Both the position numbers and the translations under genes were made by a program. From the NCBI GenBank assembly GCA_023258975.1, contig JAHFRD010000017.1, positions 1 to 64,000 on the forward strand: a DNA stretch of 64,000 bases. The letters run 5' to 3'. Positions 9,024-61,908 of the stretch are shown piece by piece; the stretch's first letter is position 1; each line of letters starts with the position of its first letter. Source of the DNA: Hydrogenophilales bacterium. Lineage in GTDB: Bacteria; Pseudomonadota; Gammaproteobacteria; Burkholderiales; Thiobacillaceae. The notes beneath the pieces are model-generated. The model was given only the letters and a program-made list of their open reading frames with translations. It did no database searches and was not told where the DNA came from.

Positions 9024-9063
9024 ACCCCGAACTGATTTCCTGAGCCCGCCCACGGTCTGATCG

Positions 9064-40135: not shown

Positions 40136-42072
40136 ATGTCCAGTTTCGACTGCGAGCCGACAATGCCCGCGTCAGCCGAGGCTTGTTCGATGCTCGACCA
40201 TGCACCGACCAGCTCGTTGTAGGCGCGTGCTTCTTCGGCCCAGCCTTTGCGTTCGCATAGTGTGTACAAGCGATAGGACAGCGCACGCATCGGCTCAGCC
40301 CGGGCTGGCATACGCGCGAGCAACGCGCCGGCAGCCGATTCGCCGTCCTGGTTGAGGGCACGAATCAGGTGGTGCAGGGCTTCCCAGATCGGCGTGCGCG
40401 TGTCGGTCTCGGGCGACCAGTCCGTGGGCAGTTCCGCCCAACGCAGTAACCGCAACTTGCCCGAGCCGCTCTCAACGACGCCGGAATCTTGCAAACCGCC
40501 GACGCTGGTGCCCTTTGCACGTGCCAGCACATCGGCATCACCGAACTTACCCTCTGCCCAGCCCTGGCCCTCGAACCAGTGCAGGCAGAACTGGGTGTCG
40601 TGGTCGAAGTCGTCCTCGGCCAGGAAGCGGTTGATGAGTTGCAGCGCGGTGCGCACGCTCATCGGTTTGCCATCGGCTTCGAGGACGGCGGTGTACTGGC
40701 TGAAGATGGCCATGCCGGGGCCGATGATGGCTTGCGACAAGTCCACCGGGGCGACCGGCGAATTGACCCCGCCCCGGGTCATGTCAAGGGTGGTCAGAGC
40801 AACTAGCTGACGTGACGTGAAGAGGTCACCATAGTCATCAAGGCCATAGTTGCTGACATTGACGCGGCACTTGCCGTGCATCTTGACCTCCGGCCTCCAC
40901 TCTGGAATCGCTTCGGCAGCGATAGCCTGGTGGTCGGCAGTCGGCGACAAATAGACGCGGCCTTTAGTGCCCTCCGCGACAATCGCCATGAGTCGGGTCC
41001 CCATGCGCCCTGCTGAACCTTCTACTCGGATGTGCTTGTAATCAATTGGCGAGTCAGAGAGCAGGCAGTAGAAGCCGCCGCGCTTACCCGCTGCCGTGCC
41101 GGCTGCGGCACCTTCCGGGGGCGTTCCGAACCGGACCTCAAATCGGTAGCTGTCGCCCTCGATCACCGGGTCGACATAGGCCTCCTTTCCTGCCTTGGTT
41201 GAAAGAACGAAGCTCGACGCAAGAGGAACTTCGACGTGCGAGAACGCTGGGTTGGGGCTTTTGACGGTGCGCGCCCATAGCCATGCGACAACAGGCAGTT
41301 TCTGACCCAGCAAAGGCTTCAGATCGGGACGCTCGGCCACCATGGTGGCCGTGACCTCTACCGGCGGGTACAGATGACCGATCCGTTTGTCGGCTTCGTC
41401 TCGCATCCAAGCGCCATAGCGACGCACGTCCTCGGCAAGACCCTTGACGCCTAGCCAGTCCTCGACGAGCTTCCGCTGCTTGTCAGTCTTCAGCATCGGT
41501 CCCACCGGCGCGCGATCGGCGAAACGTGGTGGGATGTCAATCATTGCCTTATTAATCGTCACTGCGACCGGGTTCAGGTCGCTGGCAAAGCTTTCGAACC
41601 CCAACCGCTGTGCTTCCAGTGGGATGGCTCCGCTGCCCGCAAATGGGTCGTGGAAGGCGGGCGGGTGATCCGGATTGAATAGCTCGGCCGCCTGGGGATG
41701 TGACCTGTTTAGCCGACAGGTTTCGACCCAACTGGCCCGGATAGCTGCTCGCGCGCGGTCAAGTACACCTTGGTTGTTGGTGTTCTCCCACTTCACGAGG
41801 TCTTTGATGATCTCGAACAGTTCCTCCCGCTTGGCTGCGGCCTGTGCCTTAGTCATTCCGGCGAAGTAACCACGCTCTCCACCCGGATCGTTCACTGTCT
41901 GAGCAAAGACCACCGCGCGCGCTGCAGCTACTGGTCTCTGCGCCCACCACTTATGGAGAGTCGTGGGATAGCCACCGGGGGCCTTCCTTTTTCTGAGGGC
42001 CGCCTCATCATTGATAGCGTCGAGCGGCAGGGCAACTTCGATGAGTTTTTTTGGGGTTTTGATGGGGATCAT
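40132..42072 (-). CDS. DUF1156 domain adenine-specific DNA methylase-like protein (apparently lacking motif IV)
   Basis: [50 protein letters not shown]; motif [20 protein letters not shown]; no (D/N/S)PPY found in translation. Confidence 0.8.
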
Positions 42073-42077
42073 GGGTG

Positions 42078-42710
42078 CTAGCTTTGACGTGTCAGCACAT
42101 GCTTGATGGCTGTGGCAAATGGCAGGTGTGCCGTGGCTGCGAGTTCTTGCTGCAGCAGTGGCAACCAGTCGGCCTCGGGGAATTCGTTAGCCATCTCGGC
42201 GAATTCCTCTGCTGTCTGTACATAACCCGCAACTTCACGAAATCGAATCTGCCTCAATGCGCCATCGAGATTGAAGATGCGGATGGTCTCGCCGGCACGA
42301 TAATGGTCAACTGATGAGAGGTTCTCTCTGGGGTGAACAGAACCGTTCGGGGCAAAAACCAAGTAGTGCTCCGGGTCGTCCACATCAGGCTTGATCAGGA
42401 CTGCTGGTGAATAAACACTGCACCGATTGTCTTTGTGTTTGCCGCAACTATCTTCGCGGTTGCATGAACCGAACAAGTTGGGCCAGAGAAAAGTGACCGT
42501 AGGGTCGCGCCCCTTTTGGCGGAAATGTTCGATATGCCTTTTCCCGTTGCTGATATCTGCCTCGCAGTAGGCACAGCGTTGCCCTTGCATTGCCTCCAGT
42601 TCAGTCCAGATGGCTGCCTTATCTGCCGAACCGATGTTGCCCCAGTTGTGCAGGCCATGCTGATAATTTGCCAGACAGGTGGGCGCCATGCCCCTTTGCA
42701 GTTTGTGCAT
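42078..42710 (-). CDS. HNH endonuclease, TIGR02646/PtuB-like
   Basis: [52 protein letters not shown]. Confidence 0.82.
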
Positions 42711-44219
42711 TCAATCACTCCCTTTGGAAATGGGCAGCTTCTGCTTGAACGCCTGCAAGCGGATCATTCGGTCGCACTCACGCATAACGGGGTGGCCAAT
42801 GCCAAAGTGGGCTTCGAGTTGCTTTCTCAGTGCATTGCCATCTGTGTCTTCGTGCAGATTTTGCTGAATCAAGGCGTGGTATTCGGAAAGCATCCTTGCT
42901 TCTGGTACATCGGGAATAGGGTCAACGCCCATGATTTGTGCCAACAAATCAGAGCTGGCCACACCGCGAGTTTGCAGGGCGACGAGTTCTATAACGGTGC
43001 GTTGTTTCCCTGATTCTGGATCGGCTTCCTGACTCAGGAGGCGAATGCACGAGGAGTCAACGCTGGTCAACACCTGCGGGCTGTGTGTGGTGACGATGAA
43101 CTGCAAATTAGGAAAGGCCGCAGCCAAATCGGTCAGCACGGTCTGCTGCCAGCCCGGATGCAAGTGCATATCCACTTCGTCAATGAGCACAATGCCATGT
43201 GTACGGCGTGGTGCGGCTTCCCCTTGATGAGCATTGAGTTTGTAGCAGCGGTAAGCGATGTCGCCAACCAGGGCCAGCATGTTGCGTATGCCGTCGCTGA
43301 GTTGGCTGACTTTGAGCTGGCCGTGGGTATCGTGGTTTAGAACCAGTTCTTCATGCTCAGCGCTGTATTGCAGACCATGCCAGCCGGTGTGCGGGTTGAG
43401 CATGGTATCTACGGCTTGCTGCACGGCCTTGAAGGGCGCGATGAGACCATAAGGAACGTCGGCATCAAATGGCAGCTTTTTTTCAAAATTCCGAATCTGT
43501 GCCTGTAAGTACGACTGATGAATACGGCTGAACCACACAGCAAAGTGCTTGTAGCTGGAGGATGGGTCCAGGCAATCACGATAGGCAAAGGTGCGAGATT
43601 GAGTTTCGCTGTCGGCTTGGCCATGTATGGCTGTCAGTTTCTTCTGCGCCCATAAGCGGCCTGTACCGTAGTAGCCCAGCATGGGCAAATCATCAGGTGA
43701 AGATCGCTCACCTGAAAAAATTCGCTGTTCTAAAGCCTTTGCGGTTTCATTGAGATTCAACGCGCCCACAATTACGGGCTCTTTGGTTTTCGTGCCCTTT
43801 TTGACGCTTTCCCGATAGCGCACACACTGCCAGGGAACATCCTCGTGACAAGCAACTGCAAGATCAAGCGCCGAGCCTTCAGGCTCAGGGAGTGGATTCT
43901 TCAATATGCCTTCAAGAATGAGTTGGCGAACCTGAAGTTGTCCTAAAGCTTTGATTTCTGCAGGCAACCGCCAGTCCATTTCATGCGATTGCACTTGCTC
44001 TCGCCGCACGTCATCAATCTGGATGCTTGTCACATCGTTGGTTGTGCTGCCCAAGTCAAAACCTGCGACATAGGGCCACAGAGCCACTTTGATGGCATCT
44101 AGAACGCTGGTTTTCCCCTGGCCATTTGGCGCAACCAAAACTGTCATTCGTGGGTGGAGATCCACCGAGAGAGAGTCAAAACAGCGGTAGTTTTTCAGGT
44201 AAACATGTTCAATCCGCAT
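42711..44219 (-). CDS. AAA family ATPase, PtuA-like
   Basis: [69 protein letters not shown]; immediately upstream of HNH gene. Confidence 0.85.
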
Positions 44220-47200
44220 GACTATTCGTCCTTTCGGGAGGATTTGCTCGTTTCAATAGCTCTTGCAAATCCATGTTAATGCTGGTCACCGCCCAATCCG
44301 GTTCCTGCGTGAAGGGCTTGATCACGTAGAACGGCCCTTCGTGCTGGTCACCTTCGACCAGGACGATGGCCAGGATGAATTTGTCCTGCTGGTTCAACCC
44401 GTAGAGGATTTCGTTGCGGGTGACCGTGACAGTGGTGTTGCCCTTGGCGCGGCCCTTGACCTCGATGTGACGCGAGGGTGGTATCTTGCCATCCGTGCCT
44501 TTCGGCAGGCTGGTCACGTCCCAGCCGCATTTTTGCGCCGAAACATCGATGACTTCATGGCCGAGGGCGCGCTCGGCGTCCATCACGGCCTTCATCGCCA
44601 CCCACTCGACTCGCTTACGGGCATCGGCGTCTGCAGTCCATCCTGGCTGCGATTTACGCTGCATAAGCAGTCCGGCGGGGATGACCAATGCGCCGCCCGC
44701 CACAACCGGTGTAGCCGAGATGACGTGGCGCATCGCCAACAATTCCTTCTCGCGTGACTCTCGACGTGCGGTCAGGTCATCAATGGTGCGGCGGACGTTT
44801 TCGAGCGTCAGTCGCACGTCTTTACCGGCGGCGATGTCGTCTTGAAACTTGATGTAGCGATCCGACCAGTAGTTGATTTCTTTGACCAGGCGCTCGTGTA
44901 CGGCAGCCAGGGTCTTGTCGACGTTCTTTTCGCGCCGGGTGCGTACTTCGTCAAAGTGCTCGGGCACAAGGTGCGTGGAGGCATGAGAGAGGGCAACTTG
45001 TTCGAGGTTCTGGCCATGCTGGCCACTGAGCCATGACGCGCCCAGCACATCCTCAATCAAGCCCATATCCGCCTTGCTGATCGGTTCCAGGTCGAGGTGG
45101 GGGGCCCAGCCGGCATTGATTGCACCGCCTTGTGGGTCGATCTCGACAAATTGCATACGGCGCGAGATTACGTTCAACGCGACGTGGGCGGGCTCGCCCC
45201 CTTCTCTAACCGAGTGGTCGATGATGAACATGACCTTGGGTGTGATGCCCATGTCGCTCGGATCGACCAGCACAGTTCCCTGCTTGAGTTTGTTGCGATG
45301 CTGTTCCAGCACGAGATCGGTCACGGACTGCATGAGCGGATGGCCTGGATGCATCAGGCTGGCCATCGGTGCGCCGATGCGCTCGGTGAGACGGACGAAC
45401 TGCTTTTCGAAGCAGACACGCTCATAGCGGCGCAGCACCGGGTCGGCATTGCGGCGGTCGCGACCTGTGATCTGCCGATCCCGTTCGCGGATATTGGCCG
45501 GAACATGGGTGATCTCGTAACGGCCTTGCTCGCGGGGGCGCAGTTCGCCGCCAAGTTGCTGGAATGCCTGGTTGAAAAAGGAACGGATGAAATAGGGTTG
45601 CAGCTTGCGGGCCTCGGCCTTTTCCATCTCTTCCTTGACGGCAAACAGGCGTCGCTCGTCCATCACCTCTTCGCACAGGGCGTTGCGCTTGATGATGGTT
45701 TCGAGGTGCTGTGTGTCCAGAGCGCCTTCAACCTTGCGGTGCAGTCGGGCGCGTATCTCAGGGTCATCACCGTAGCGGATGGCTTCGATCAACAGGTCTT
45801 TGAGGCTTTTCTCTTCAAACACCTCGCCGAGGATGTCGAACACGCGGCCGCCCAGTGCTTTGCGCTCGACTTCCAGTTTTTCAAACAGGCGCTGGAATAC
45901 ATCGCCCTCGCGGGTTTCGGCGGCGACCATATTCCACAGGTGACAGACCTCGGTCTGGCCGATGCGGTGGATACGACCGAAGCGCTGCTCCAGTCGGTTT
46001 GGATTCCACGGCAGGTCGTAGTTGACCATCAGGTTGGCGTTTTGCAGGTTGACGCCTTCACCCGCCGCATCTGTGGCCAGCAACACGCGGGTGTCCGGAT
46101 CGTTGCGGAATAGCTCCTGCACCTTGCGGCGATCTTCGCGTTTGACGCCGCCGTGGATCATCACGACAGACTCTTCGTTGCCGATCAGGCCGCGAATCTT
46201 GACCGCGAGATAGTTCAGTGTGTCGCGGTGCTCGGTGAAGATGATGAGCTTACGTTGACGACCGTCTGCGTCGTGCATCTCGGGGGTGTTCTGCAGCAGT
46301 TTGGATAGCTCGTCCCACTTACGATCCTGGCCAGAGTGGACAACCTGGCGGGCCTGCTCCTCCAGATCTTCGAGGATGATGATTTCGGCCTCAAGCTCCT
46401 GGATGGTTTGTGCTGCCGTGGCTTGATCGACGACGGCTTCTTCGAAGTTCTCATAGTCGTCCGGTGAGAGTGCGTCAGCAGATTCCCAAATGTCCTCGGG
46501 GATATTGTTCAGGCTTATCGTCTCTGCCAGTGACTGGCCACGCTGACGAAGTTTTTCATCCTCGACGCGTCGCTTGAGTTTGTTACTACGGCGCTTGAGC
46601 GACTGGTAGATGGCTTCCGGGCTGGAGGCCAGGCGGCGCTGCAGGGAGGTCAGCGCGAAGCCGACCGTGCCCTTGCGTGCGCCATCCTGCAATTGATCCG
46701 CACGGTTCATTTCCTCCTTCACGTAGTCGGTGACGGCAGCGTAAAGCGCGGCCTCTCTATCGGAGAGTTTGTAGTTGGCTGTGCGGGCACGGCGCTCGGG
46801 GAACAGGGGTGAACCGTCAAACTTGAGCAGGTCTTCTTTGACCATTCTGCGCATCAGATCGGTGACATCGACCTTGTGCGCGCCATCGCGAAACTTGCCG
46901 TAGAAGCGGTCAGAGTCTAGCAACGACATAAATAACTGGAAGTCCTCTTCCTTACCGTTGTGAGGCGTGGCGGTCATCAGCAGGAAGTGGCGGGTAATCG
47001 AACCCAGCAATTCGCCGAGTAGAAAGCGTTTGGTCTTGTTGACCTTGTTGCCGAAGTAGCTGGCTGAGAGCTTGTGCGCTTCGTCGACGACGATCAGATC
47101 CCAATGCGAAAGGCGCAGCTTTTCCTGGAGGTCTTCATTGCGAGAGAGTTGGTCTACCCGGGCGACCATCAAGTCGATGTCATCGAAAGGGTTGCCACTT

Positions 47201-47772
47201 CGGGACTGTTCAACCTGCTCGCGGGAAAACAGCAAGAAGGACAGACCGAACTTCTCGAACATTTCGTCTTGCCACTGCTCGACCAGGCTGCCGGGCGCGA
47301 CGATCAGCACACGCTTGGCGTCGGCACGCATCAGCAGCTCACGGATGAACAGGCCTGCCATGATGGTTTTGCCGGCGCCGGGGTCGTCGGCCAAGACATA
47401 ACGCAGCGGCTGGCGTGGCAGCATCGACTCGTACACAGCTGTAATCTGATGCGGCAGCGGCTCCACGTTGGACGTATGGACGGCCATCATCGGATCAAAC
47501 AGATGGGCTAGATTGATCCGGTAAGCCTCGGCCGCGAGTTTGAACTCCTCGCCGGGGGCATCGAAGGCCCAGGGGCGGCCCGCTTCGGCCAACGACAGGT
47601 TGGCCTCGTCGGTGCGAAACAACATCCGCTCCAGAAGTTTGCCGTCCGACGTTTTGTAGTAGACGGTGAGTGCGCTGTCGCCAGCCGGCTCCGTGGTCAC
47701 GACGCGCACGACCTGTCCGGGTTCAATGCCGGAGATGACTGCGTTTTTCTGGATCTGCTCTAGCTTCAGCAT
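44209..47772 (-). CDS. SNF2-type helicase with C-terminal DUF3883-like domain
   Basis: [56 protein letters not shown]-term [26 protein letters not shown]. Confidence 0.9.
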
Positions 47773-48024: not shown

Positions 48025-48405
48025 TTACTTGCCGAGTACGGGAATGGAGCGTGCGGTAAACAAGTCAGCCGCGAGGTGAAGCAAGTACGCGGAGCCGACA
48101 ACCAGAGCGCCTACGCGCAGCAGCTTTTGCCCGTCTGTTTCTGGTTTCCATTGGTAGGCTCGATGAAGGCCGTAGCCGACCATGCCGGCGAACGCAAAGC
48201 TGTGAAAAAACTGACGGTGATGCGGATGGATGGCCGGTTCAATGGCATCGGGTAAGCTCGCCAGCAGTGCTGACGCGGTTCCACCGACAATTGGATGCGC
48301 GATGCCTTGTTGCTGCTCAGGCGGCCGAGAGGTAAGGAAACTCGCTGTCGCCGCGAAGTTGATGATGCGATGGGTTGCTGCACAGGGCATGGACGTCGTC
48401 CTCAA
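48025..48405 (-). CDS. YdjM/DUF457-like membrane metal-dependent hydrolase
   Basis: HPIVGGTASALLASLPDAIEPAIHPHHRQFFHSFAFAGMVGYGLHRAY + hydrophobic C-terminus. Confidence 0.65.
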   Translation of the reverse strand: MRTTSMPCAATHRIINFAATASFLTSRPPEQQQGIAHPIVGGTASALLASLPDAIEPAIHPHHRQFFHSFAFAGMVGYGLHRAYQWKPETDGQKLLRVGALVVGSAYLLHLAADLFTARSIPVLGK

Positions 48406-49343
48406 TTGTCCGTTGATCGTGTCGGCGTTACATATCCTGGCGCGATACTGAGGTTGGCCACATCAACCAGCGATAGGTGATTGCGCAGCCACAGGTGGTA
48501 TTCGGCGCCTTTGAGGCTATGGTTCTCGGTGCAGTCCACGTTCCATCGGCGGAGCAGGTAGCCCGCAACTGCGGCACGGACACGAATGCGAAGAGCCCCG
48601 TCATCCATGCCATAGTCGGCCTCGATTGCGTCGGGGTGCTGGACGTTCGCCGGGTGCGGCACCAGTTCAAGCTCGACGATACGGGTCCACTGGATATCCT
48701 GGTCCGGCATTTCGTGTTCTTCAGTACTGCCGGCTATCAGTCGGGCATCGGCAATACGTGTCAGAACAAAATCCCGAAATTCGCCACTGCGCCGATCATA
48801 GGCACGGACATGCCAGCGCAACCCGTTGTCAGCCAGTGCAAACGGGACGATCTCCCGCGTGGTCAGTCCGCTGGACAACGCTCGATATGAAATCTCGACA
48901 ACACCCTTTCGATGAATGGCGCGCGTCAGCACAGACAGCGTTTCGAGATCCGGCTTATTTAATAACGCTGGCCCTTCGCAAGTAACGAGTGACTTGAACC
49001 GCAGCGGTTCACCATCCCCAAACCCCTGCGACAGCCAAGCGAGCACGCGCTCTACCGGATACTCAAACACCGGGCGAAACCACTCGCCGCGCACGTAAAC
49101 CTTGCCCTTGGGGTCGTAGTCGAGATTGCGCTGAGCAATCTCTTTGTACTGGGCGATATCCCTTGTCGCTGCCGCTGCCTGGATTCCAAACCGTGCCACC
49201 AAATCCTGGCGGCGAATTTCCCCGATGAAGCGTAGACGCAACTCGATAAAGGCGAGTCGGTCGCGCTGGGGCTGAGTCAGTTCTGAAATTTCTTCGTTTG
49301 ACATCCTGCGAGCCAATAATGGCTGGTTGGTACTCTTGCGCAC
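48402..49343 (-). CDS. WYL domain transcriptional regulator
   Basis: N-terminal wHTH RRQDLVARFGIQAAAATRDIAQYKE; WYL-like ISYRALSSGLTTREIVPFALADNGLRWHVRAYDRRSGEFRDFVLTRI. Confidence 0.85.
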   Translation of the reverse strand: MRKSTNQPLLARRMSNEEISELTQPQRDRLAFIELRLRFIGEIRRQDLVARFGIQAAAATRDIAQYKEIAQRNLDYDPKGKVYVRGEWFRPVFEYPVERVLAWLSQGFGDGEPLRFKSLVTCEGPALLNKPDLETLSVLTRAIHRKGVVEISYRALSSGLTTREIVPFALADNGLRWHVRAYDRRSGEFRDFVLTRIADARLIAGSTEEHEMPDQDIQWTRIVELELVPHPANVQHPDAIEADYGMDDGALRIRVRAAVAGYLLRRWNVDCTENHSLKGAEYHLWLRNHLSLVDVANLSIAPGYVTPTRSTDN

Positions 49344-49628: not shown

Positions 49629-51059
49629 ATGTTTAACACCGGACATCAGCAGTTCTTCAGATCGCTGACCCTCAAAAAACGTCGACTCGTTGCGGCCTGC
49701 ATCCAAGCTTTCTATCAACGCCTATATGGCTCACATGCCGATTACCGGTCTATTCTCGGGCGCGAGGAATTGCGTGATTTGTTCGTACAGTCCATACAGG
49801 CTGCTGGGCCCGGCAATGAATGCGACGACGACGCAATTGATGAGGGATTCACCCCGAGCGATCTGGCCGACGAGCAGAAGATGGCGAGCGCATTTATCCG
49901 CCAACTGGTGACGGACGGTTGGTTGGAGACGGCGGAAGATCGCGTCCGTCTGGTGACAGCCTATCGCTTTACCCGGACTGGCAAGATTTTCGCCCAGGCG
50001 TTGACGCTGGCTGATCGCCCCAGGGAACGAACACGCCAGCGCAACATGCGCTCGTGCAAGAACGCTCTAGCAGCCTTCATTGACCGCCGAGATGTCGAAG
50101 ATCTGCTGGATGCCTACGAATACGCCGACCGGGTGATCACCGATCTCTCCGAGGATATCGAGCTGTTCTATGAACTGGCACGCAAGATACTCATGGACGC
50201 ACATGCTCACGGAAATTGGGATGCCTTCGTCGAGTTCATCGAGCGGCGTTTCCGGGACGAGTTTTCGCCACGCCTGGTGTATGACAACGCGGAACGCCAC
50301 CGCCTCGATATCGCTGCCCAGATGGATCGGCTCCACGATCTGAACGAGAGTGAAGTGGAGGCGATCGACACTGATCTTGCACTGCACGCTCCATGGGCAG
50401 CCCAAGCCGCGCCTGCTGGAGCAGTGATGCGTTGGTTATTAGACCGGATCGAAGAAATGGTAACTGCGGCCTGCCGGACTAAGCAGCCAGAATTATTCCG
50501 TGCGATGGAAAGCTATATCCGCCGGCATGTCGTGTTGCTGTCCCAGAGTCTCTTCATGGATGCAGCGGGAGCTGGCGCAACCTTGTCCAAGCTCATCCGT
50601 AGCCTGGGTGAGATGCCAGAGGCTGACCAGTCACGTTGGTTGGAAGTACAGGGTATGGCTCTTTCGCCCGTGGCAGTGGCCCTATACGACCCCGCGACGA
50701 TCAGGATGAAAACATCTGCGGAGCGAACTCGTGCACAGACAGTCAGCATCGTTCCCGAGATTACGCGGGAGGAACGCCTCCGGCAGTTCCTACGCCAAGC
50801 CGAGGAACGTGCTTTTTCCTTGTCACAAGTTGACATCTTGAACTACCTCTTGGCCCGGATGGATGGCAAGGATGCACTGCGTCTGTCGGAACTGCCTGTC
50901 GATGATGCCATCCAGGCATTGGCCTTACTGCGAGCCGTCGAGGCAGCTCGGGGCAGCGAACGGCTGGAGGTTGATCGCCGAGAAGGCGAGCTCCTAGAAA
51001 ATTTAATCATGTCAGGCACCGACTATGAGATCAGGAGGCGGCATGTCGGCAATGGATGA
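49629..51059 (+). CDS. jetA: Wadjet JetA-like (kleisin) protein
   Basis: MFNTGHQQFFRSLTLKKRRLVAACIQAFYQRLYGSHADYRSILGREELRDLF; first gene of a four-gene jet operon. Confidence 0.8.
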   Translation: MFNTGHQQFFRSLTLKKRRLVAACIQAFYQRLYGSHADYRSILGREELRDLFVQSIQAAGPGNECDDDAIDEGFTPSDLADEQKMASAFIRQLVTDGWLETAEDRVRLVTAYRFTRTGKIFAQALTLADRPRERTRQRNMRSCKNALAAFIDRRDVEDLLDAYEYADRVITDLSEDIELFYELARKILMDAHAHGNWDAFVEFIERRFRDEFSPRLVYDNAERHRLDIAAQMDRLHDLNESEVEAIDTDLALHAPWAAQAAPAGAVMRWLLDRIEEMVTAACRTKQPELFRAMESYIRRHVVLLSQSLFMDAAGAGATLSKLIRSLGEMPEADQSRWLEVQGMALSPVAVALYDPATIRMKTSAERTRAQTVSIVPEITREERLRQFLRQAEERAFSLSQVDILNYLLARMDGKDALRLSELPVDDAIQALALLRAVEAARGSERLEVDRREGELLENLIMSGTDYEIRRRHVGNG

Positions 51060-51747
51060 AACCAGCATCGACCAATTGGTTGGTGCCGAGCTGAAAACGC
51101 GAGGCGTGCGGATCGAGTCCTTCCGGCAGATTGTCGGGCGGCTGCTGGGGCTTTCCATCCTGCACCGGGAGGATAGCGCTACCGAGCGGCAGCTCTATGA
51201 CGATGCTGTGCGCATCGAGGGCTTGCTCAACGATTACTTCGAGGTGGCTGGATTCCGTCTACTGCACGAACGACACCAGACCTACTTCCGTCTTTATCCA
51301 CCTGGTGCACGGGTGCCAGGCTTGCCAGATGAGGATGACGCGATTGTGACGGAAGCCGTTCGAGCACGACCATCCGCCGATTTTGTTGCTTGTTGCCTGG
51401 TCCTGCGCCTGCTTTACAACGAGGGGCTGCGTCAGGGGTCGATCAACGAGCGTAATGAAGCGCTCGTGACCGTCGAACACCTGACCGCCACACTGACCGC
51501 GCATATGCGGCGCTCGCTGCCGGCGAAAACGGCGCGCGAAAAGTTGTTCGCCGACCTGAAGCGAGTTCGGTTGATCGATTATCGCGCCGACCCTCAAATT
51601 GACGATGCCGACGCGCTTATTGCCATCCGGGGAACGGTTCTGCAATTCGTCGCCGATTCTGCCGTTGATGCCCTCTTGGTGGAGATGCAGAAGCCGCCAC
51701 AGCTAGTCCCGACGCAAATACAGGGGGGGGCTGGCGATGAAGCTTGA
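51043..51747 (+). CDS. jetB: Wadjet JetB-like (DUF4194-type KITE) protein
   Basis: VRIESFRQIVGRLLGLSILHREDSATERQLYDDAVRIEGLLNDYFEVAGFRL...; AGGAGG upstream of ATG 51043. Confidence 0.8.
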   Translation: MSAMDETSIDQLVGAELKTRGVRIESFRQIVGRLLGLSILHREDSATERQLYDDAVRIEGLLNDYFEVAGFRLLHERHQTYFRLYPPGARVPGLPDEDDAIVTEAVRARPSADFVACCLVLRLLYNEGLRQGSINERNEALVTVEHLTATLTAHMRRSLPAKTAREKLFADLKRVRLIDYRADPQIDDADALIAIRGTVLQFVADSAVDALLVEMQKPPQLVPTQIQGGAGDEA

Positions 51748-54700
51748 GAAACTAATCCTCATCAACTGGGGTTTCATGGTTTCCAGGGAATACCCGTTTG
51801 GAGACACGAACCTACTGTCGGGCTCTACCGGAGTCGGGAAATCTTCGTTCCAGGACGCTATCCAGCTGGTCATGACGGGCGGCAAGCAGCACATCAATGT
51901 TTTCAACTCGGCTCAGGACGAGGCTGGCGGTGGCGGACGTGCTGGTGGCAAGGTTCGACGCACCTTGGCCTCATATGCAGTTGGGATGCGCGACAACTTG
52001 TGTGTCCGACCAAATGGTTCCCACACTTATGTCGCCGCCGTCTTTGCACCGGAGGCCGATGAGACGGCGCAGGCGTTTACTGCTGTAGTGGCCGTAGAGG
52101 CTGAGGTGTCCGGCACGCGGGAGCAAGGCCGCAGTGTCCAGGCGAGCCGTCGGCAATTTCTTGTTCTGCCCGGAAGCAGGTTATCGGAATCCGATTTTGT
52201 TCCCTCACGCAAAGATGGGGCGATCGAGGCAGTTCCCGTTGACCAGATTTACACCAGTTTGCGCCTGCGCCACGCGAAGGTGTTGTCCTTCGATTCCATT
52301 GAGGACTATCTCTGCAAGCTGTATGCCTCATTCAGAGGCGGGGAAAAAGTAGTCGTCGGCCCTCGCGAGGCTGAGGATGCCGCCCGTGCGTTCGTTCAGT
52401 CCATAGCCCGTAAGACCGTCGGATCGGTGGATGAACTGATCCGCGAACAGGTGCTTGCGGAACCTGATTTCTCGGAGCAGATCGGCCACATCGCTTCCCT
52501 GATGCAGAATGTACAACGACTGCGGAAGATCGCCACGGAATTGCAGGCTTCCCGGCAGCGGCTTGGAGAACTCAAGGAACATGCCGATGGGTTCCTTGGC
52601 GCTTTCGAGGATGCAATGGAGGCGGAACTGGGAGAGGCGCTGCGCCGCCAGCAGGATGTAGAGCGGAAAATCGAGAAACTGCACGAAGAACGGCGACAGG
52701 TTTTAGCCACTGCTGAACGGGAAAAGGCGTCCGCCGACAGGCACGGCAAGGCACTGACCCGTGCCACGAATTTGCAGGCATCCGCTCAGGGACGGCTCAA
52801 CGGTAATCCGGTGGCACAGGAGCGTGAGCGGCTCGACGGAAAGATAAAAACTGCAAAAGAAGAGCGGACTGGCATCGCGATCGGACTCCTTGCGGCACTT
52901 GAGAAATTGCGCACCTGCCTGAGCGAGTTGACGGTTTCAGCACAACGTCCTAACCACGAAGAGACTGCGTACAAGGCGGTCCTCGACCGCCTTGTCCTCG
53001 ATCTGGCCAAGCTCGATGTTGCGGATGCACGGTCGGCGGCCAACCAGCTGGCGGCCCAACTGCGTACTGGAGAAGTCGATCTGGTCGGGTTGCCGCGAGA
53101 TCAATTTTCCGCTTTGGATGCAGCGTTATCGCCGCTGATGGAAAGCATCCACGGTCCGGATGGCCTCTATGCCCTAATAACGCTGGAACAGGCGCGGCAA
53201 CAGACCAAGATAGAGACGCTCCAGGGTGAGATCAACGACCTCAATAAACGTCGACAGGGTCTGGATGAAGGACGGATGGACCTGCCTGGTCATGTCGAGG
53301 ACGCTGTCTCATTCCTGGAAATGAAGTATCCCGGTGCGCGGCCCCAGATTCTCTGCAACCTCGTCAAGCCCAGGGAGGGCTCCCGTTGGCAGAACGCCAT
53401 CGAGGGACTACTGGGAGGAAACCGCTTTGTCATTCTCGTCGAGGCGGATTTTGAAGCCCGTGCCATTCGCGCTGTGCGTCATGAGCTACCAGCGGCAGCG
53501 AAACGCGGAAAACTTCGGGAAGCGGATGCCTCTGTGGTGCAGGGCGAACTTGCCAAGAAACGTGTAGATCATCTCTCCCTGGCTGCTGATTCCATCCTTC
53601 ATGAGCTTGCAATCACCGACGAAACTGCGCGGGCCTACCTTACTGCAAGCTATGGTCGCTATCTCAAGGTGAGGGACGAGGAAGCATTGCGTGGTGCGAA
53701 TTCCGGCCTGACATCGGACGGCATGGCGTCTGGCGGCTTCAAGATGTTCACTGCATGGGCAGAGGACGGGGATCTTGCCTTCGGTGCCGAGGCCCGGCGT
53801 AAGCGGGCAATCAAACTTGCGCGAGAGATTGAGGAAAAATCGCGCGAGATAGCCAGTTTGAAGTCGAGTGTCGCGGAACTAGTTGCTTGGAGTGGCCGCG
53901 TACTGAAGCTGGAATTCGTCTCTTTTGGCCCCAAGCTGGATGCCCTGGCAGAGATTCAACGCCAACTGAACAGCTTCACCGCAGAACGGGCGAGTCTTGA
54001 CGACACCAGTTTGGCGGCACTCGAGCGGCGGGTGGTGCGAGCCAAGCGTCTGAATGAGGGGCACCAGGCGTTAATGAGCCGTGCGGCGGCAGCTGCAGGA
54101 GAGGCGGCAGGTCGCGCCAAGGGGCTGGACGCGAACATCGCCGAGGCCGAAAGCGACCTGGACATGCGGCTGGATGGCGTCAGACGCGTGAAGATGCGCG
54201 TAGTCGAACTCGTGCGTCTCAATCCCCGTTTCGATCCGGGCCGATTAGAACAACGCGCCCAGGAAGCCGTATTGGATCAAACCGCCGAGCAGTTCGACGG
54301 TCGGCGGCGTCAACAGACGGGCCTGTACCGGGAACATCGCGAATCTTTCGAACGGCAGATCGAGGAGCACAACCGACTCGTCTCTTCACTCGACGAGAAG
54401 GTGGATTACCACCCCCGAGATACGTCTATTGCTGAATATGAGTGGCAGGCCTATGGTGGTGTGCCGGAAAGCCGTCGGCAGATCGTTGCCATGCTCGACC
54501 GACTGGAGCAAGTGCGCATTCTAAGTAATACACATGCGTTGGAAGATGCTGAGAAGGGTTTCAATAATACATTCAGCACCCACTTCGCCCTTGCTGTGCG
54601 CACCGCCGTGGAGCAAGGCATCCAGCCACTGAAAAGGCTCAACGATAAACTCAAGCGTCTGGCGTTCGGAGAGGATCGGTTCGAGATCGAATATGGCCAG

Positions 54701-55441
54701 ATGGTCAAAGAGTACAAGCAGTACTACGACCTATTTCAGGATCTGAACCGACTGGCCGAGACCCAGACACCAGTTGATTTGTTCTCTGCTGCTGAGGGCG
54801 TTTTGTCCGAAGAGAGTGCGGTTGCCATGGAAGAGATCAAGCGCTTGCTCCTTGATCCCAACCGGGATTTCTCTCTGCGACGCCTGAAAGACATCGCCGA
54901 CTACCGCAACTACCGCCAGTACGACATCCGAAAATATTCCGAGGATGGACGCCAAGCATCCTTGGCAAAGATGGCGACTTTTTCCGGCGGCGAACTCATG
55001 ACGCCGGCCTATCTGGTGCGTGCCGCCGTACTGGCCCAAGCTTTCCGCCAATTCGAAAAAACATCCAGTCTCAAGCTCATGATGATCGACGAGGCTTTCG
55101 ACAAGATGGATGAAACCCGTACTGCCGCTGTTATGCGTTACCTCAATGAAAATCTCGGCTTGCAACTGATTGTGGCCATGCCAACGCGCTCGTCTGGCCC
55201 CCTGCTTGATCTATTCACCTTCGAGCACCGATTCTCGCTGATGAAAGTGGATGGTTTGGCCGGGGAGTTGGACAAGGTTACGGAAGTGGATAGTTCACTA
55301 CTCAAAACTGACCGGCTGCGTGCGCTTTGGGCAGCACGCCGGGAGGTGGTTAAGGTTCAAGCCGAACAGGAGTTCCTCCTCCAGGAAGCCCGGCAGCAAC
55401 TTGCTATTGATCAACCACTCTTCTCTGGGCTGCAACCATGA
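51737..55441 (+). CDS. jetC: Wadjet JetC SMC/MukB-like ATPase
   Basis: 1234 aa; Walker A LLSGSTGVGKSSFQDAIQLVM; C-terminal LMMIDEAFDKMDETRTAAVMRYL. Confidence 0.92.
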   Translation: MKLEKLILINWGFMVSREYPFGDTNLLSGSTGVGKSSFQDAIQLVMTGGKQHINVFNSAQDEAGGGGRAGGKVRRTLASYAVGMRDNLCVRPNGSHTYVAAVFAPEADETAQAFTAVVAVEAEVSGTREQGRSVQASRRQFLVLPGSRLSESDFVPSRKDGAIEAVPVDQIYTSLRLRHAKVLSFDSIEDYLCKLYASFRGGEKVVVGPREAEDAARAFVQSIARKTVGSVDELIREQVLAEPDFSEQIGHIASLMQNVQRLRKIATELQASRQRLGELKEHADGFLGAFEDAMEAELGEALRRQQDVERKIEKLHEERRQVLATAEREKASADRHGKALTRATNLQASAQGRLNGNPVAQERERLDGKIKTAKEERTGIAIGLLAALEKLRTCLSELTVSAQRPNHEETAYKAVLDRLVLDLAKLDVADARSAANQLAAQLRTGEVDLVGLPRDQFSALDAALSPLMESIHGPDGLYALITLEQARQQTKIETLQGEINDLNKRRQGLDEGRMDLPGHVEDAVSFLEMKYPGARPQILCNLVKPREGSRWQNAIEGLLGGNRFVILVEADFEARAIRAVRHELPAAAKRGKLREADASVVQGELAKKRVDHLSLAADSILHELAITDETARAYLTASYGRYLKVRDEEALRGANSGLTSDGMASGGFKMFTAWAEDGDLAFGAEARRKRAIKLAREIEEKSREIASLKSSVAELVAWSGRVLKLEFVSFGPKLDALAEIQRQLNSFTAERASLDDTSLAALERRVVRAKRLNEGHQALMSRAAAAAGEAAGRAKGLDANIAEAESDLDMRLDGVRRVKMRVVELVRLNPRFDPGRLEQRAQEAVLDQTAEQFDGRRRQQTGLYREHRESFERQIEEHNRLVSSLDEKVDYHPRDTSIAEYEWQAYGGVPESRRQIVAMLDRLEQVRILSNTHALEDAEKGFNNTFSTHFALAVRTAVEQGIQPLKRLNDKLKRLAFGEDRFEIEYGQMVKEYKQYYDLFQDLNRLAETQTPVDLFSAAEGVLSEESAVAMEEIKRLLLDPNRDFSLRRLKDIADYRNYRQYDIRKYSEDGRQASLAKMATFSGGELMTPAYLVRAAVLAQAFRQFEKTSSLKLMMIDEAFDKMDETRTAAVMRYLNENLGLQLIVAMPTRSSGPLLDLFTFEHRFSLMKVDGLAGELDKVTEVDSSLLKTDRLRALWAARREVVKVQAEQEFLLQEARQQLAIDQPLFSGLQP

Positions 55442-56604
55442 TGGTTTCCCTGCAGGAGGACTGGGCTCGAGAACCCGTGCTGGCGGCTTTGCTGCACGCT
55501 TTGGTCAATCGAGTCGACACGCTGCCCTTTGATGCCCGTAGTAGGGATCTGATCTTCCCTCTGAATGCCATGACTTGGCCCGACTTTTTCACCATTGACC
55601 ACCCAGGCGAACGTGCCTTCATCTGGCAGATTCTAGGGAAGCTGGTGCAACAACCCGGATTCACACTGAAGCTGGATGAGCGCCGTAGTGCTCGCGATCT
55701 CGATATCTGGGAAAGGCGCCCCAAAATCGTTATCACTCAGGAAAGCGAGCACTTCCTTCGTGAGGTCACAGGACGTCACCCCTCAGTTGAAGCCATCTGG
55801 CTGAAACAGTGGAAACGTGCCGTGGGGATACGTTTCGGTGAGGGGACCCTGGCGGCTCGGCTGGTTGCTCGTCCGATCACCATCCTCAAGCGCACGCCCG
55901 AAGAAGTGTTGGATCGGTTCGAGACCCTAGCTGCATTGATCGAATCGAATCTGATGCTCCACGAGGTAGCCAGCCGCCAGTTCTGGGGTTTGTCGAAAAT
56001 CCTCAATGGACAGCAAGAAGCCATTGCCCTGCTGCTAGAGCGGGAGGTCTGTCCATTCCCCGACAAGCCCGTACAGCTCATTGTTCAGGCGCTCACCGCA
56101 GACTCTGGCGCACCCATCCTGTTCGTCGAAAATGCTGCCACGTTCGAATCACTGGCATCGGGTCGACTGGACGAGGCGCGTGGATTCGTCCTGGTCTACG
56201 CCTCTGGCTACAAGGCAAGCGCGCGCCGGATTCGCATGTCCGGCGGCAGTTCCATCTATTTCGCACCACGAGTGTTCGAGAGCAATCCGGCCTTGCCGCA
56301 AGCCTTCTTGGTGTGGCTGTACTCAGCTGACACTGCTCGCCCCGTTTATTTCTGGGGTGACCTGGACTACGCCGGATTGGACATTCTCAAGGAACTACGG
56401 GTCGTGTTCCCGGAGGCGCGGGCCTGGCAACCAGGCTACGATAAGTTACTTGAGCTTCTGGTGGCAGGTGAATCCCACGCGCCAGACGAGGCGAGAAAAT
56501 CTGGCCAGATGGATCCCGGCCAAGCTGGCTGTATTTATGCGGACGAGGTACTGCTGCCTGCATTGCGTAGGTATGGGCGCTTCGTGGATCAGGAAAGTCT
56601 CTAG
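55438..56604 (+). CDS. jetD: Wadjet JetD (DUF3322/DUF2220 Toprim-like nuclease)
   Basis: ILFVENAATFESLASG...YFWGDLDYAGLDILKELRVVFP; overlaps jetC stop. Confidence 0.9.
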   Translation: MMVSLQEDWAREPVLAALLHALVNRVDTLPFDARSRDLIFPLNAMTWPDFFTIDHPGERAFIWQILGKLVQQPGFTLKLDERRSARDLDIWERRPKIVITQESEHFLREVTGRHPSVEAIWLKQWKRAVGIRFGEGTLAARLVARPITILKRTPEEVLDRFETLAALIESNLMLHEVASRQFWGLSKILNGQQEAIALLLEREVCPFPDKPVQLIVQALTADSGAPILFVENAATFESLASGRLDEARGFVLVYASGYKASARRIRMSGGSSIYFAPRVFESNPALPQAFLVWLYSADTARPVYFWGDLDYAGLDILKELRVVFPEARAWQPGYDKLLELLVAGESHAPDEARKSGQMDPGQAGCIYADEVLLPALRRYGRFVDQESL

Positions 56605-56772
56605 GTGTCCGTGAGCAGGGAGTGGTCTTGTCCTGACAATGCCTAGCTTCGGGGACGGCTCACCCGGTTCCGAGTAACTTGACCGATGAGTTCACTCAGG
56701 ATGCCCAGAAGGAAAAGCAAAGTGAATTGATCGCAAAATATGGCAAACCATACATAGGCAGGGTGCGAAAAC

Positions 56773-59175
56773 ATGGATGTCGAGCAACTGACAGAACTCC
56801 CTACAGAATCCGATCTCGAGGCGAGGATCCACGGCACGGTTGCGCGCATATTTCCTTGGATCGGTTCTGGTTCGCTGCGCCACCAACTCCGCTTTGCCAT
56901 CAAATTCGGGCGCGCGACTGTCGAAGTCAATGGACGAACGGTGTCCAGAGCCGAAGGGCGCCTAGATATTCTGGTGTCGGATGGGGATATGCCCCTTGCC
57001 GTGTTGGAGCTGAAGCGCGAGGAAGCCGGTCTTTCTGCCGCCGACGAGCAGCAGGGGTTGTCCTATGCGAGGATGCTCCAGCCGAGCCCTCCTTTGGTGA
57101 TTGTGACCAACGGTCGCGAGACGCGCCTGCTTGCATCGCACGACGGTTCACAGTTGGAAGCCGACGATTTCGGTGCCGAGCAGCTGAAAAATATGATTTT
57201 TGCAGCTTCCTCCGTCGCCACTGGGGATTTGAGGAAGGCGGTCGAAACGCTTCTCGGGCAGCGCGAAGGCCTTTGGGTCGATGCCATACGGGCGGCGACG
57301 GCCAATACGATCGCCGACATGTCTGGAACATGGGATGAATACCTGCAGCCCTTCGTCCGTGATTTTCTCATCCCCCGGAAAGCTGCTCGGGAGGCGCTGT
57401 CTCTACTAAACAAGGAAACGGGTCGCCGGGTCGTAATCGTCGAGGGCGCCCCGTTGGCTGGGAAGAGCAGCGTCATCCGGGAGGTGGCGGAACTTGCCGG
57501 CCGGTCCGACGACCTGTGCGTGCTCCTCATTGAGGCGGACTCAACAGGGGAGGGCGTGTTCCAGCGACTGGCAAACCTGTTCTCGGTCGAATTTGGCTGG
57601 CCCGCCACCCCGGACGACATTAGATCCTGGTTGCGTGGAGTCTCTGCCCGAGAAGCCGGACCGAAACTCGTGGTAGCCATCGACTGTGACCGGGCAGCCG
57701 GCGAGCAGGTTCGCAGGGACATTGATGAACTCGTATCAGAGCAGTTCGGTCGCGGACTCCGGATTATTCTTGGCCTGGACAACTCGCTGACCGACTCGGT
57801 CATTCTTAACGAAACCAGAAGGAAGCAAACCCGGATTGGGAGAAATGCTGCCGTCGTCACGGTCGGTCTGCTCGACGATGAAGAGTTCGCTTCGGCATGC
57901 AAGGCCCTGGACGGGGTGAGTATGCGGTTCATGCCTGGTGCAGGAGTTTCAGGCGAGTACCGGACCCCCTGGCTTCTTCGAGCAATTGCCGTAGATGCGC
58001 AAACTACTTCTGGCAGCGGCGAGAAACTAGTTGCAGCCCTTCGTCCGCTCATGGGGCTGGATCTGATTGCCAATGCACGACACCGTTTCTCCGACGATGA
58101 TCTTCGTACCGGATACCGAAAACTGGCCAGATGCATCCTGAAGGATATCAAAGACATATCCAGGCCTGCGCACCTTGTGCTGGAGTCGATGATGGTCTAC
58201 GTCGTCCGCACCAAGACGGCGAAGACCAAGCTCGACCACGATGAGCTTCGGGCGCTTCGGAAAACCGGAGCTGTAAAGCAAACCTTCCATCCGTCCGGCG
58301 AGGATGTGATCGTCGCACGCCTGCCCGAAGCCATGGCGGCGGAATTGGCGAGTGTCCTGGCAAAGGATCTGGCGGAAAGAGTGAAGTCCAGTCCCAGCAA
58401 GGCGGCACAATGGCTTCTGACGATCTCCACAAGGCTGCCGATGGGCGCTGTGGTGGCTGCACAGGCCATCCTTGATGCAGCAGGGATTCTTGAAGGGATA
58501 CCGCTCGCTTTCCTGAACAAGATACTGAAAGATCGCCCCCACAAAGAGGTGGCCAGTCCTGGTTTCCGTGCGTCTATGTACTGGCCGAGCATTGGAACAG
58601 TTGGCCTTCGGTTCAATGAAGACGGCAGCGTTGTTGCATCCGCCCCAGGCAGGACTCCGATGAAGCTGGATCTATCGCCTGAGGAGCGTGATGAAATGAC
58701 CATGCAGGTTGGCGGCCAGGGGTTGCTTGTGCTGTCGTATCTGGCCGGTCTCCAGCTTCTCGCCATCGGTGATGACGGTCGACATCTCGGCAGCGTTACG
58801 CCAGCGCTGTTGCTTGAAATCGGCAGTTGCCCGGTACCGCTGAGGCGGCCGTCAGCACTAGAGGCCGATCGCGGATTATGGACACACGATGTTCCCGGCC
58901 AAGGAGAGGTAGTCTGCCACCGAAACGGTATTGTCGAGCAGATTACACTGGCGCTGCTGGATGCGATTGTCCGGATGAGCGTGGAAGAAGCCGACGAGTG
59001 GGTCGCGGAGGCGCTGCAGCGTGACTCGTTCCCTTTGCTTGCAAGGATTGATATCGCCTTGCGCCAAGTCGCATGCTTTGCCGACAGGGAGAAAGCAGCA
59101 TGGGCACAAAGAACACTGGACAGTACCGTCGGATCGGCCATCTCGCGCGTCTTCGGGCCTGAGCATGCGCATTGA
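56773..59175 (+). CDS. HsdR_N-like PD-(D/E)XK nuclease fused to P-loop NTPase (candidate single-gene defence protein)
   Basis: N-term AEGRLDILVSDGDMPLAVLELKREEAGLS (D-x17-ExK); Walker A VIVEGAPLAGKSSVIREV; about 400-aa uncharacterised C-terminus. Confidence 0.75.
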   Translation: MDVEQLTELPTESDLEARIHGTVARIFPWIGSGSLRHQLRFAIKFGRATVEVNGRTVSRAEGRLDILVSDGDMPLAVLELKREEAGLSAADEQQGLSYARMLQPSPPLVIVTNGRETRLLASHDGSQLEADDFGAEQLKNMIFAASSVATGDLRKAVETLLGQREGLWVDAIRAATANTIADMSGTWDEYLQPFVRDFLIPRKAAREALSLLNKETGRRVVIVEGAPLAGKSSVIREVAELAGRSDDLCVLLIEADSTGEGVFQRLANLFSVEFGWPATPDDIRSWLRGVSAREAGPKLVVAIDCDRAAGEQVRRDIDELVSEQFGRGLRIILGLDNSLTDSVILNETRRKQTRIGRNAAVVTVGLLDDEEFASACKALDGVSMRFMPGAGVSGEYRTPWLLRAIAVDAQTTSGSGEKLVAALRPLMGLDLIANARHRFSDDDLRTGYRKLARCILKDIKDISRPAHLVLESMMVYVVRTKTAKTKLDHDELRALRKTGAVKQTFHPSGEDVIVARLPEAMAAELASVLAKDLAERVKSSPSKAAQWLLTISTRLPMGAVVAAQAILDAAGILEGIPLAFLNKILKDRPHKEVASPGFRASMYWPSIGTVGLRFNEDGSVVASAPGRTPMKLDLSPEERDEMTMQVGGQGLLVLSYLAGLQLLAIGDDGRHLGSVTPALLLEIGSCPVPLRRPSALEADRGLWTHDVPGQGEVVCHRNGIVEQITLALLDAIVRMSVEEADEWVAEALQRDSFPLLARIDIALRQVACFADREKAAWAQRTLDSTVGSAISRVFGPEHAH

Positions 59176-59358
59176 AGCCAGAAGCCAGCGTTGCAGTCTG
59201 CATGGTCGTAGGTTCGGTTGCTAACTTGAGGATCGAACTGGCGTCTACTAGCATTCCGCCTGGTCAGAAGCGGGAACGTACGGACAATCACGTAACCTGT
59301 TACCTTTGGCTTCAGATTTTGTGTGCTCGTGGAGTCGCCTCCTCTCCACCACGACACC

Positions 59359-59385
59359 AAGGCCAGACGTTGCTCTGGCCTTTTT
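59359..59385 (+). terminator. rho-independent terminator
   Basis: AAGGCCAGA-CGTTGC-TCTGGCC-TTTTT. Confidence 0.75.
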
Positions 59386-59603: not shown

Positions 59604-60086
59604 TCAGCCCCCGATTTCAGCAACTATCCGCCGCTGAGATTCCCAGTCCAAGGGCAGGCTGTTGCGTACCAGATACTCAAGCGACAAGGTCCGGAGCTGC
59701 CTGCCCTCGAGAATGGCCAGGGTGATTTCAGGAGCCAGGATGACGAGCCTCAAGACCTCCCTGACTCGCGTGATTTCCATTCTCTCCCGTTGCGCGATCT
59801 CGTTCGCGTCAGCAACCACGCCCTGGTCGATCTGCTTGTCCCAGTAGTGCGCCAGGGCGAGCGCCTTGAGAAGCGTTTGATCGTGCACGGGCGAGATTGC
59901 TACCGCCGATGCGTTGATCGTCACCGGCTCGTCCACGCCGACCGGCCCGACCACCACTTTCTTGATGCCCCGCTTCTTGAATTGCAGGGGGACGAATGTG
60001 GTGATCTTCTCACCGCCATCTTCCAACGGATGCCGCCGCTCATGCGGCTGGCCGGTGGGAAGCAGTTTGTTGCCCGTCCGGTTCAT
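59604..60086 (-). CDS. recombinase-associated protein
   Basis: 160 aa; stop overlaps recombinase; LLKALALAHYWDKQIDQGVVADANEIAQRERMEITRVREVLRLVILAPEI (HTH-like). Confidence 0.65.
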   Translation of the reverse strand: MNRTGNKLLPTGQPHERRHPLEDGGEKITTFVPLQFKKRGIKKVVVGPVGVDEPVTINASAVAISPVHDQTLLKALALAHYWDKQIDQGVVADANEIAQRERMEITRVREVLRLVILAPEITLAILEGRQLRTLSLEYLVRNSLPLDWESQRRIVAEIGG

Positions 60087-61447
60087 GCTTCCTCCATTTC
60101 CAGCATCTCGCCGCCGATGGTGTCGGGCGCCAGTTCGCCGGCCAGTTCCTTCCAGCCCACCTCACGCCAGACGATGTCGATGCCGTCCGACAGCAACTGG
60201 ACACGCTCGATCAGCAGATTCACCAGGCGCACCTGCTCCTCGGGGAACAACTGCTTCCAGACTTCCCCCAACCGCCGCATGGCCAGTACCACGGTCGGCT
60301 CCGCGATCTCGGGGTAGAGGCGTCCCACCTGGTTCCAGATACCTTGCACCGCCTCGGGCGCCTGCAGGGCACTGACCACCAGGTTCACCACCACCTCCTC
60401 GATCTGATCGGCGGGGATCAGGCCGGTGGCACTTGTGCGGTGGCCATAGCGCTTGTCCGCCTTGGGCATGTAGTAGCGGTACTTCTTTCCCGAGGGTTTC
60501 GTGGAGAACGTGATGTGGTACTTCTCGCCATTCGACCCATAGAGCAGGCCGCGCAACAGGGCATCGGTTTTGCCGCGCGTCCGGGTGGCGCCCATCCGCG
60601 CATGGGCATCTTCGTCCAGGATGGCCTGGACCCGATCCCACAACTGACGGGTGATGATGGGTTCGTGCTGGCCGGCATGTACCACGCCCTTGTGGCGGAT
60701 CTCGCCGACGTAGATCGGGTTGCGCAGGGCCTTGGACAGAAACTTCTTGTCCATCGGCGTGCCATTGCGCACCTTGCCGTCGGCGGTCTTCCACGCCTTG
60801 GTGGTAACGCCGTCCAGTGCCAGTTCCCGGCAGAGGTCCGTGGCAGAGCGCAGTTCCGCGAATCTCTGGAAGATGCGCCGCACCGTGGCGGCCTCTGCCT
60901 CATTGATGACCAATTGGCGGTCCTTCACGTCATAGCCGAGCGCGGGGTAGCCGCCCATCCACATTCCCTTGCGCTTGGAGGCGGCAATCTTGTCTCGAAT
61001 CCGCTCGCCGGTGACCTCGCGCTCAAACTGGGCGAAGGAGAGCAGGATGTTCAGCATCAACCGGCCCATCGAGGTGGTGGTATTGAATTGCTGGGTGACG
61101 GACACGAACGACACCTTGTGCCGCTCGAAGATTTCGATCAGTCGGGCGAAGTCCGCCAGACTGCGGGTGAGCCGGTCGATCTTGTAGACCACCACGATGT
61201 CGACCTGGTCGGCGGCGATGTCGTTCATCAGCCGCTTCAGCGCCGGCCGCTCCATGTTGCCGCCGGAGTAGCCGCCGTCGTCGTAGTCGTCGCCGACCGG
61301 CAACCATCCCTCGGCGCGTTGGCTGGCGACGTAGGCCTGGCCCGCTTCCCGCTGGGCATCCAGGGAGTTGAACGACTGGTCCAGCCGCTCGTCGGTGGAC
61401 ACGCGCGTGTACACCGCGCAGCGTTTCCTGGTGACGATGGCGTTCAT
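60083..61447 (-). CDS. large serine recombinase/integrase
   Basis: RCAVYTRVSTDERLDQSFNSLDAQREAGQAYV...VVVYKIDRLTRSLADFARLIEIFE...RNPIYVGEIRHKGVVHAGQHEPII. Confidence 0.93.
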   Translation of the reverse strand: MNAIVTRKRCAVYTRVSTDERLDQSFNSLDAQREAGQAYVASQRAEGWLPVGDDYDDGGYSGGNMERPALKRLMNDIAADQVDIVVVYKIDRLTRSLADFARLIEIFERHKVSFVSVTQQFNTTTSMGRLMLNILLSFAQFEREVTGERIRDKIAASKRKGMWMGGYPALGYDVKDRQLVINEAEAATVRRIFQRFAELRSATDLCRELALDGVTTKAWKTADGKVRNGTPMDKKFLSKALRNPIYVGEIRHKGVVHAGQHEPIITRQLWDRVQAILDEDAHARMGATRTRGKTDALLRGLLYGSNGEKYHITFSTKPSGKKYRYYMPKADKRYGHRTSATGLIPADQIEEVVVNLVVSALQAPEAVQGIWNQVGRLYPEIAEPTVVLAMRRLGEVWKQLFPEEQVRLVNLLIERVQLLSDGIDIVWREVGWKELAGELAPDTIGGEMLEMEEA

Positions 61448-61908
61448 TTTGCCCTCCGCTGCGTTTTGGCCAACCCGAAAAACACCGGCCCGGACCACTG
61501 GCTGCCGGTGATGTAGCGTGCGACCGCCGACAGGCTCTTGAAGCGCTGGCCGGCATATTCGAAGGTGCCATCGGCCTGAGCCGTGACGCGGTGCTCGCGA
61601 TCGCCATATTCGCGCACCAGCAGGGTGCCGGGCACGATGTGGAATTCCCTGGGGCTGCGCCGCTTCATCTTCGATTGCGCCTCGCCGATGCGGATGAGTT
61701 GCTGGCGTACCTCGGGCTTGAGCCCGCCGTAGGCCGCCTCCTGGATCTTGTAGGCGACGCGCCCCTCGACGTAGTTGCGGTTATGGTGGGAGGGACGGCG
61801 CGGGAAATAGGTGTCCCACAACGTCCACAATGCCTTCATCGGCAATCGCGGCAGCGACGCCACTTGGGCGGCGACCGTTTGTTCCTGGCTGGGTGCCTTC
61901 ATCGTCAA
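61444..61908 (-). CDS. DUF2924 domain protein
   Basis: LWDTYFPRRPSHHNRNYVEGRVAYKIQEAAYGGLKPEVRQQLIRIGE; stop overlaps recombinase start. Confidence 0.85.
   Translation of the reverse strand: MTMKAPSQEQTVAAQVASLPRLPMKALWTLWDTYFPRRPSHHNRNYVEGRVAYKIQEAAYGGLKPEVRQQLIRIGEAQSKMKRRSPREFHIVPGTLLVREYGDREHRVTAQADGTFEYAGQRFKSLSAVARYITGSQWSGPVFFGLAKTQRRAK

Follow-up and report, generated by a model that had tools for sequence, protein, structure and literature searches.

The gene and its domains

The window analysed here is a stretch of 64,000 nucleotides from a Hydrogenophilales bacterium. It contains a complete Wadjet I operon, jetABCD, whose four genes match the PADLOC models JetA1, B1, C1 and D1 with E values from 3e-81 to 0. 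Directly downstream is the gene described in this work. The features are as follows.

49629-56604 (+): jetABCD, Wadjet type I (PADLOC JetA1-D1); a neighbour, not part of the system
56773-59175 (+): HSDR_N-STAND family gene, 800 aa, ATG start; the subject of this report
56806-57252 (+): N-terminal PD-(D/E)XK nuclease domain, approximately residues 12-160 (Pfam HSDR_N and residue conservation)
57373-58032 (+): P-loop NTPase module, approximately residues 201-420 (AAA_22, nSTAND_NTPase5, Foldseek and conservation)
58033-58317 (+): helical and putative winged-helix-like segment, approximately residues 421-515 (inferred from AF2 secondary structure)
58318-59172 (+): C-terminal domain, residues 516-800 (AF2 model and conservation)
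59359-59382 (+): weak terminator-like stem-loop with a T run, 3' of the gene (1 found, 2.5 expected in shuffled sequences)

An earlier note, made from the DNA alone, had proposed this reading frame, three motifs within it and a 168 bp gap behind jetD. The 800-residue frame is present, with its ATG, and the gap is exactly 168 bp, the jetD stop codon ending at 56604. The motif GRLDILV occupies residues 62-68, the ExK region (LAVLELKREEAGLS) residues 75-88, and the Walker A sequence (GAPLAGKS) residues 225-232. The protein as a whole is not covered by any PADLOC or NCBIfam model, in line with the suggestion that it was undescribed. The proposed pairing of an HsdR_N-type nuclease and a STAND-like NTPase, in one protein, is also supported. 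Both HSDR_N (best E 2.9e-10) and AAA_22 (best E 1.6e-6) were matched in 21 of 21 relatives in a family-level Pfam scan.

Alone, the window protein scores 24.6 bits against HSDR_N, where the cut-off is 25.1, and 26.8 bits in a six-frame search. Residue conservation was read from an alignment of 25 sequences, 24 of which cover the nuclease residues. In all 24, E12, E16, Q38, R63-x-D65, E79-x-K81 and Q94xxxY98 are invariant. Hence, the family has an intact PD-(D/E)XK core, of the form E...D-(x)n-ExK, and the QxxxY motif. Note that confidence in the AF2 model is lowest over the nuclease domain (pLDDT 42-81).

The NTPase module also matches nSTAND_NTPase5, at E<0.1, in 15 of the 21 relatives (best 2.3e-4). 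The window protein, at 12.3 bits, falls far short of the curated Pfam STAND cut-off of 34. The Walker residues G225, G230 and D304 are present in 25/25 sequences and K231 in 24/25; the exception is a distant member (L032), where GR replaces GK. Other motifs are RxWLR (284-288), the Walker B-like LVVAID (299-304), LxxxEF (367-372) and R397/PWxLR (399-403). Many members have a single acidic residue in Walker B. A full-length AF2 model, built from 21 sequences, has a pLDDT of 81.6 and a pTM of 0.76. The best solved structure found by Foldseek was Avs4 bound to a phage portal (E 2.6e-7), followed by Cdc6/ORC, NLRC4, NOD2, Apaf-1 and an Avs5 filament (E 1e-5 to 1e-7). The TM-scores are low, at 0.2-0.3, because the domains are arranged differently. 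Hence, Foldseek supports the NTPase class, rather than a detailed superposition. Together, structure and profile searches suggest a place among STAND/ORC-Cdc6 proteins, with STAND profile matches that are weak.

The earlier note described a C-terminus of ~400 residues with no recognised family. This stands for the last ~285 residues, which have an unfamiliar fold. It does not stand for residues ~421-515, a predicted winged-helix-like stretch of the NTPase module (H466-472, H489-497, E501-505 and E511-515 in the AF2 secondary structure). Modelled alone, the C-terminal 287 residues gave a compact and confident AF2 structure (pLDDT 87.9, pTM 0.82), an alpha/beta fold of ~285 residues in which a helical bundle carries a beta insert. 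The best match in the PDB had an E value of 0.38, so we count none, and no repeat fold was matched either. A repeat sensor, which the earlier note had raised, is thus not what the C-terminal model contains, and we rejected a sensor of the TPR type. What we see instead is a compact domain with invariant residues: P518, P589, G684, H705, C715, E722 and R758. The last four, invariant in 24/24 sequences, suggest a pocket or active site, judging from conservation. We propose, tentatively and as something short of an even prospect, that the family is a separate kind of single-gene STAND-nuclease receptor, whose C-terminus has a new fold in which a His-Cys-Glu site (H705, C715, E722) is invariant. 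If so, sensing may be enzymatic or ligand-binding, as opposed to shape recognition through repeats.

Distribution, selection and genomic context

The earlier note had called the protein an orphan, which it is not. We found ~24 distinct relatives, full-length or nearly so, with ~24-77% identity. These are from proteobacteria, Nitrospira and one planctomycete. Scans with patterns from the single protein, in genome and viral collections, returned nothing; alignment-derived patterns were needed. In 85,488 genomes, an alignment-based search located 21 loci, and genome sampling added two further full-length members (a third match was the L016 locus once more). The nearest relatives, 73 and 77% identical, are from Azospira and another member of the Rhodocyclaceae. 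The farthest come from a planctomycete, from a Xanthobacteraceae bin and from a Clostridium, the last with the nuclease-NTPase part only. With tblastn, octopine Ti plasmids, a Rhizobium plasmid and a Sinorhizobium plasmid gave full-length relatives (32-34% identity), and a P. aeruginosa plasmid gave a split one. In E. coli, where the gene was traced via one broken copy, 236 of 5,426 complete genomes have it, mostly intact and on the chromosome; the E. coli protein has the accession WP_000839828.1. Within the window's own taxonomic family the gene is in 1 of 118 genomes, and within the order in 5 of 400, two of these being partial matches. None of the 50,697 phage records searched contains a family member. 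Three IMG/VR matches are an E. coli island with its integrase and without an obvious phage gene.

Split or frameshifted copies occur in P. aeruginosa (L003:13983-16372), one E. coli (L006:14001-16318) and an Enterobacteriaceae genome (L027:9947-12322). The gene decays, then, in some hosts.

The dN/dS is ~0.15, with values of 0.15-0.20 in seven pairs. Compared with the two nearest relatives, each domain gave an omega between 0.10 and 0.25, indicative of purifying selection throughout. Hence, selection acts on the entire protein. At the DNA level, the window is homologous to the same two relatives over 56772-59198 and no further. We conclude that the gene alone is the moving unit, which agrees with the single-gene behaviour proposed earlier.

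The earlier note had also suggested examining the surroundings of homologues for an enrichment in defence genes. Recognised defence genes lie within ~10 kb in ~13 of ~23 distinct contexts, an observation rather than a statistic, with mainly the larger neighbours scanned. These include Wadjet I (the window), Shango (E. coli, L010 and L011), MzaBCDE (L031, L033), Tmn (L004, L019), Dsr1 (L017), Avs4 with LmuB of Lamassu (L028), Ppl with an MvaI-type endonuclease (L023), IetS (L032) and a NERD-helicase (L034). A Ppl-like neighbour is found at L018 and a broken one at L016. AbiE is nearby at L005 and L008, the latter a Ti plasmid, and an AbiEii-like gene with Abi_C at L025. Among the genes scanned, the other ~10 contexts have no recognised defence gene, and three of the loci (L026, L027, L029) have only housekeeping neighbours. 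Even closely related members on the tree differ in their defence neighbours, a behaviour that fits a defence gene acting by itself.

Several family loci have integrases, a tRNA integration site, ICE genes or transposition-like genes. In one genome (G1462; L050:31-4150 and 8596-10983) the member adjoins co-oriented genes for an integrase-core protein, an AAA protein and a third protein. By eye this is a transposition-like set, and a Tn7-like or Tn5053-like element may carry the member as cargo. In E. coli, a gene for a 338-residue membrane-protein-like product of no known family lies upstream of the member (L009:10402-11418). It is in 243 E. coli genomes, compared with 236 for the member, and is absent beside other relatives.

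Relation to Avs proteins and proposed function

Avs1-5 have an N-terminal nuclease, a STAND NTPase and a C-terminal sensor region in one gene, and the predicted layout of the family is the same. Avs4, the best structural match, is weakly similar in the NTPase by hhalign (E 1e-4, probability 58%). However, the family protein is half the length of an Avs, and its C-terminus is a compact alpha/beta domain where Avs proteins have a TPR-type repeat. Avs models in PADLOC did not match the window protein or five relatives at E 0.01. Hence, an Avs assignment, which the earlier note had left to be checked, does not apply to the window protein by sequence. Comparing sequences and models, we consider the family Avs-like in its predicted working, yet not Avs by sequence or sensor.

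Two longer HSDR_N-NACHT proteins are homologous to the family over the nuclease and most of the NTPase.

L039:5291-8437 (-): longer HSDR_N-NACHT protein, 1048 aa
L035:373-3603 (+): longer HSDR_N-NACHT protein, 1076 aa

In hhalign comparisons, residues 6-410 are common to the family and one of these (E 4e-21), and residues ~34-377 to the family and the other (2e-17). In the L039 protein, Walker B is of the canonical NACHT form (LIDALDE). The C-termini of both are longer and unrelated. Sensor swapping on a common nuclease/NTPase part is a pattern known from Avs proteins; since the nuclease and NTPase are held in common here, and the C-termini are not, the same pattern is indicated. The two longer proteins are probably further undescribed sensor variants.

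The analysis shows which domains the family contains, that its active-site residues are intact, that selection on it is purifying, that it moves as a single gene and that it is associated with defence loci. We infer a role in defence. The protein is probably an immune protein that spreads horizontally, needs no other component and operates in the manner of an Avs, with a C-terminal sensor, a STAND switch and a DNA-cutting nuclease. Briefly, the C-terminal domain of ~285 residues would recognise an invader product, or a state that the invader induces. The STAND-type P-loop NTPase and winged-helix-like segment would then be released to bind NTP and self-assemble. Assembly would bring the N-terminal PD-(D/E)XK domains together, and so permit cutting, presumably of DNA. 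The DNA cut might be the invader's or the cell's own, the latter being abortive infection. If this is correct, bacterial immunity of the Avs/NLR style gains a short, single-gene member whose sensor domain resembles no solved structure. It would also provide a candidate function for a gene that ~4% of complete E. coli genomes carry as an accessory, and for those annotated 'type I restriction endonuclease' on octopine Ti plasmids, of which the helper plasmid pGV2260 is one. We found no paper that names the family. The DefensePredictor study, whose main text is without sequences, describes 42 validated systems, 13 of them of the PD-(D/E)XK kind (PMC13092281).

Partner genes, targets and neighbouring systems

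Some loci raise the possibility of a two-component system, in which the nuclease-STAND protein acts with an adjoining HEPN/AbiC-type partner that has been lost from, or is dispensable at, single-gene loci. We think this unlikely. The case is clearest on Ti plasmids and on Rhizobium pMK-3, where the genes form a tightly packed operon.

L008:11332-17107 (octopine Ti plasmid pGV2260): AbiEi, AbiEii, unknown gene of ~280 aa, family member, TIGR02391
L005:11332-17107: the same five-gene operon

The TIGR02391 protein, encoded directly behind the member, matches PADLOC PD-Lambda-3_B at 3e-85, and also Aga_HEPN. Hence, it is homologous to the HEPN-like B component of PD-Lambda-3, a system described by Vassallo et al. 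2022 (PMC9519451) and listed elsewhere with a PD(D/E)XK nuclease (PMC10952713). No family member tested, however, matches the PD-Lambda-3_A model. The ~280 aa gene recurs, in convergent orientation, beside the G642 member. Directly upstream of other members are Abi_C (L025) and a gene for 246 residues with an RNRDQH motif (L018). Against this, no partner is common across the tree, and none of these genes occurs at the loci of the window, Azospira, E. coli, Rhizobium/Tmn or Nitrospira. No relationship could be detected among Abi_C, TIGR02391, the ~280 aa gene and the 246 aa gene, and a HEPN-type partner common to all loci was rejected. A partner gene, AbiC- or HEPN-type, may be used in some lineages. 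On the Ti plasmid, an ABC system of three components and a TIR gene come after the five genes. Older literature has reported that Ti plasmids exclude phage; our search for these reports returned none.

The same architecture could target plasmids or conjugative elements rather than phage, in anti-plasmid defence or in competition between elements on ICEs and plasmids. Conjugative Ti plasmids and ICE-like loci (with DUF5623 and conjugation genes) do carry the family, and the window gene sits behind Wadjet, which is an anti-plasmid system. Even so, phage is the known target of most of the recognised neighbours (Shango, Dsr1, Tmn, Avs4), and adjacency to Wadjet is confined to the window. We rate a plasmid target as slightly less probable again than a dedicated partner.

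Public annotation has the gene as a 'type I restriction endonuclease', that is, a type I R subunit or orphan HsdR. This is very improbable. The HSDR_N domain is present, QxxxY and the PD-(D/E)XK N-terminus are common to both groups, and six members weakly match an EcoAI-type HsdR model (best 2e-5). However, Pfam scans find no SF2 helicase motor domains in the family, the ATPase module instead resembles STAND/Cdc6, and the window gene adjoins jetABCD and a recombinase rather than hsdM or hsdS. A restriction subunit was therefore rejected on domain content.

Least credible of all is that the Wadjet operon has this gene as a fifth, accessory member: although the gene is co-oriented with jetD, and no promoter-like site was found in the gap between them, the relatives at 73-77% identity have no jet genes and nothing in common with the window but this gene, and tblastn with JetA-D finds nothing at any other family locus searched, so that the linkage is unique to the window and a Wadjet subunit was rejected.

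Other genes in the window are also of interest. Upstream, and facing away from the Wadjet operon, 40132-47772 (-) contains a methyltransferase-like gene (DUF1156), a gene for 210 residues, and genes for a PtuA-like ATPase (PADLOC 3e-172) and an HmaA helicase (E 0). This looks like an Hma-type defence system. Between these genes and jetA, and divergent from jetA, is a WYL-domain regulator (48402-49343, -), possibly common to both systems. Just downstream of the family gene, a large serine recombinase (60083-61498, -), with small co-oriented genes on both sides, is the probable edge of an island.
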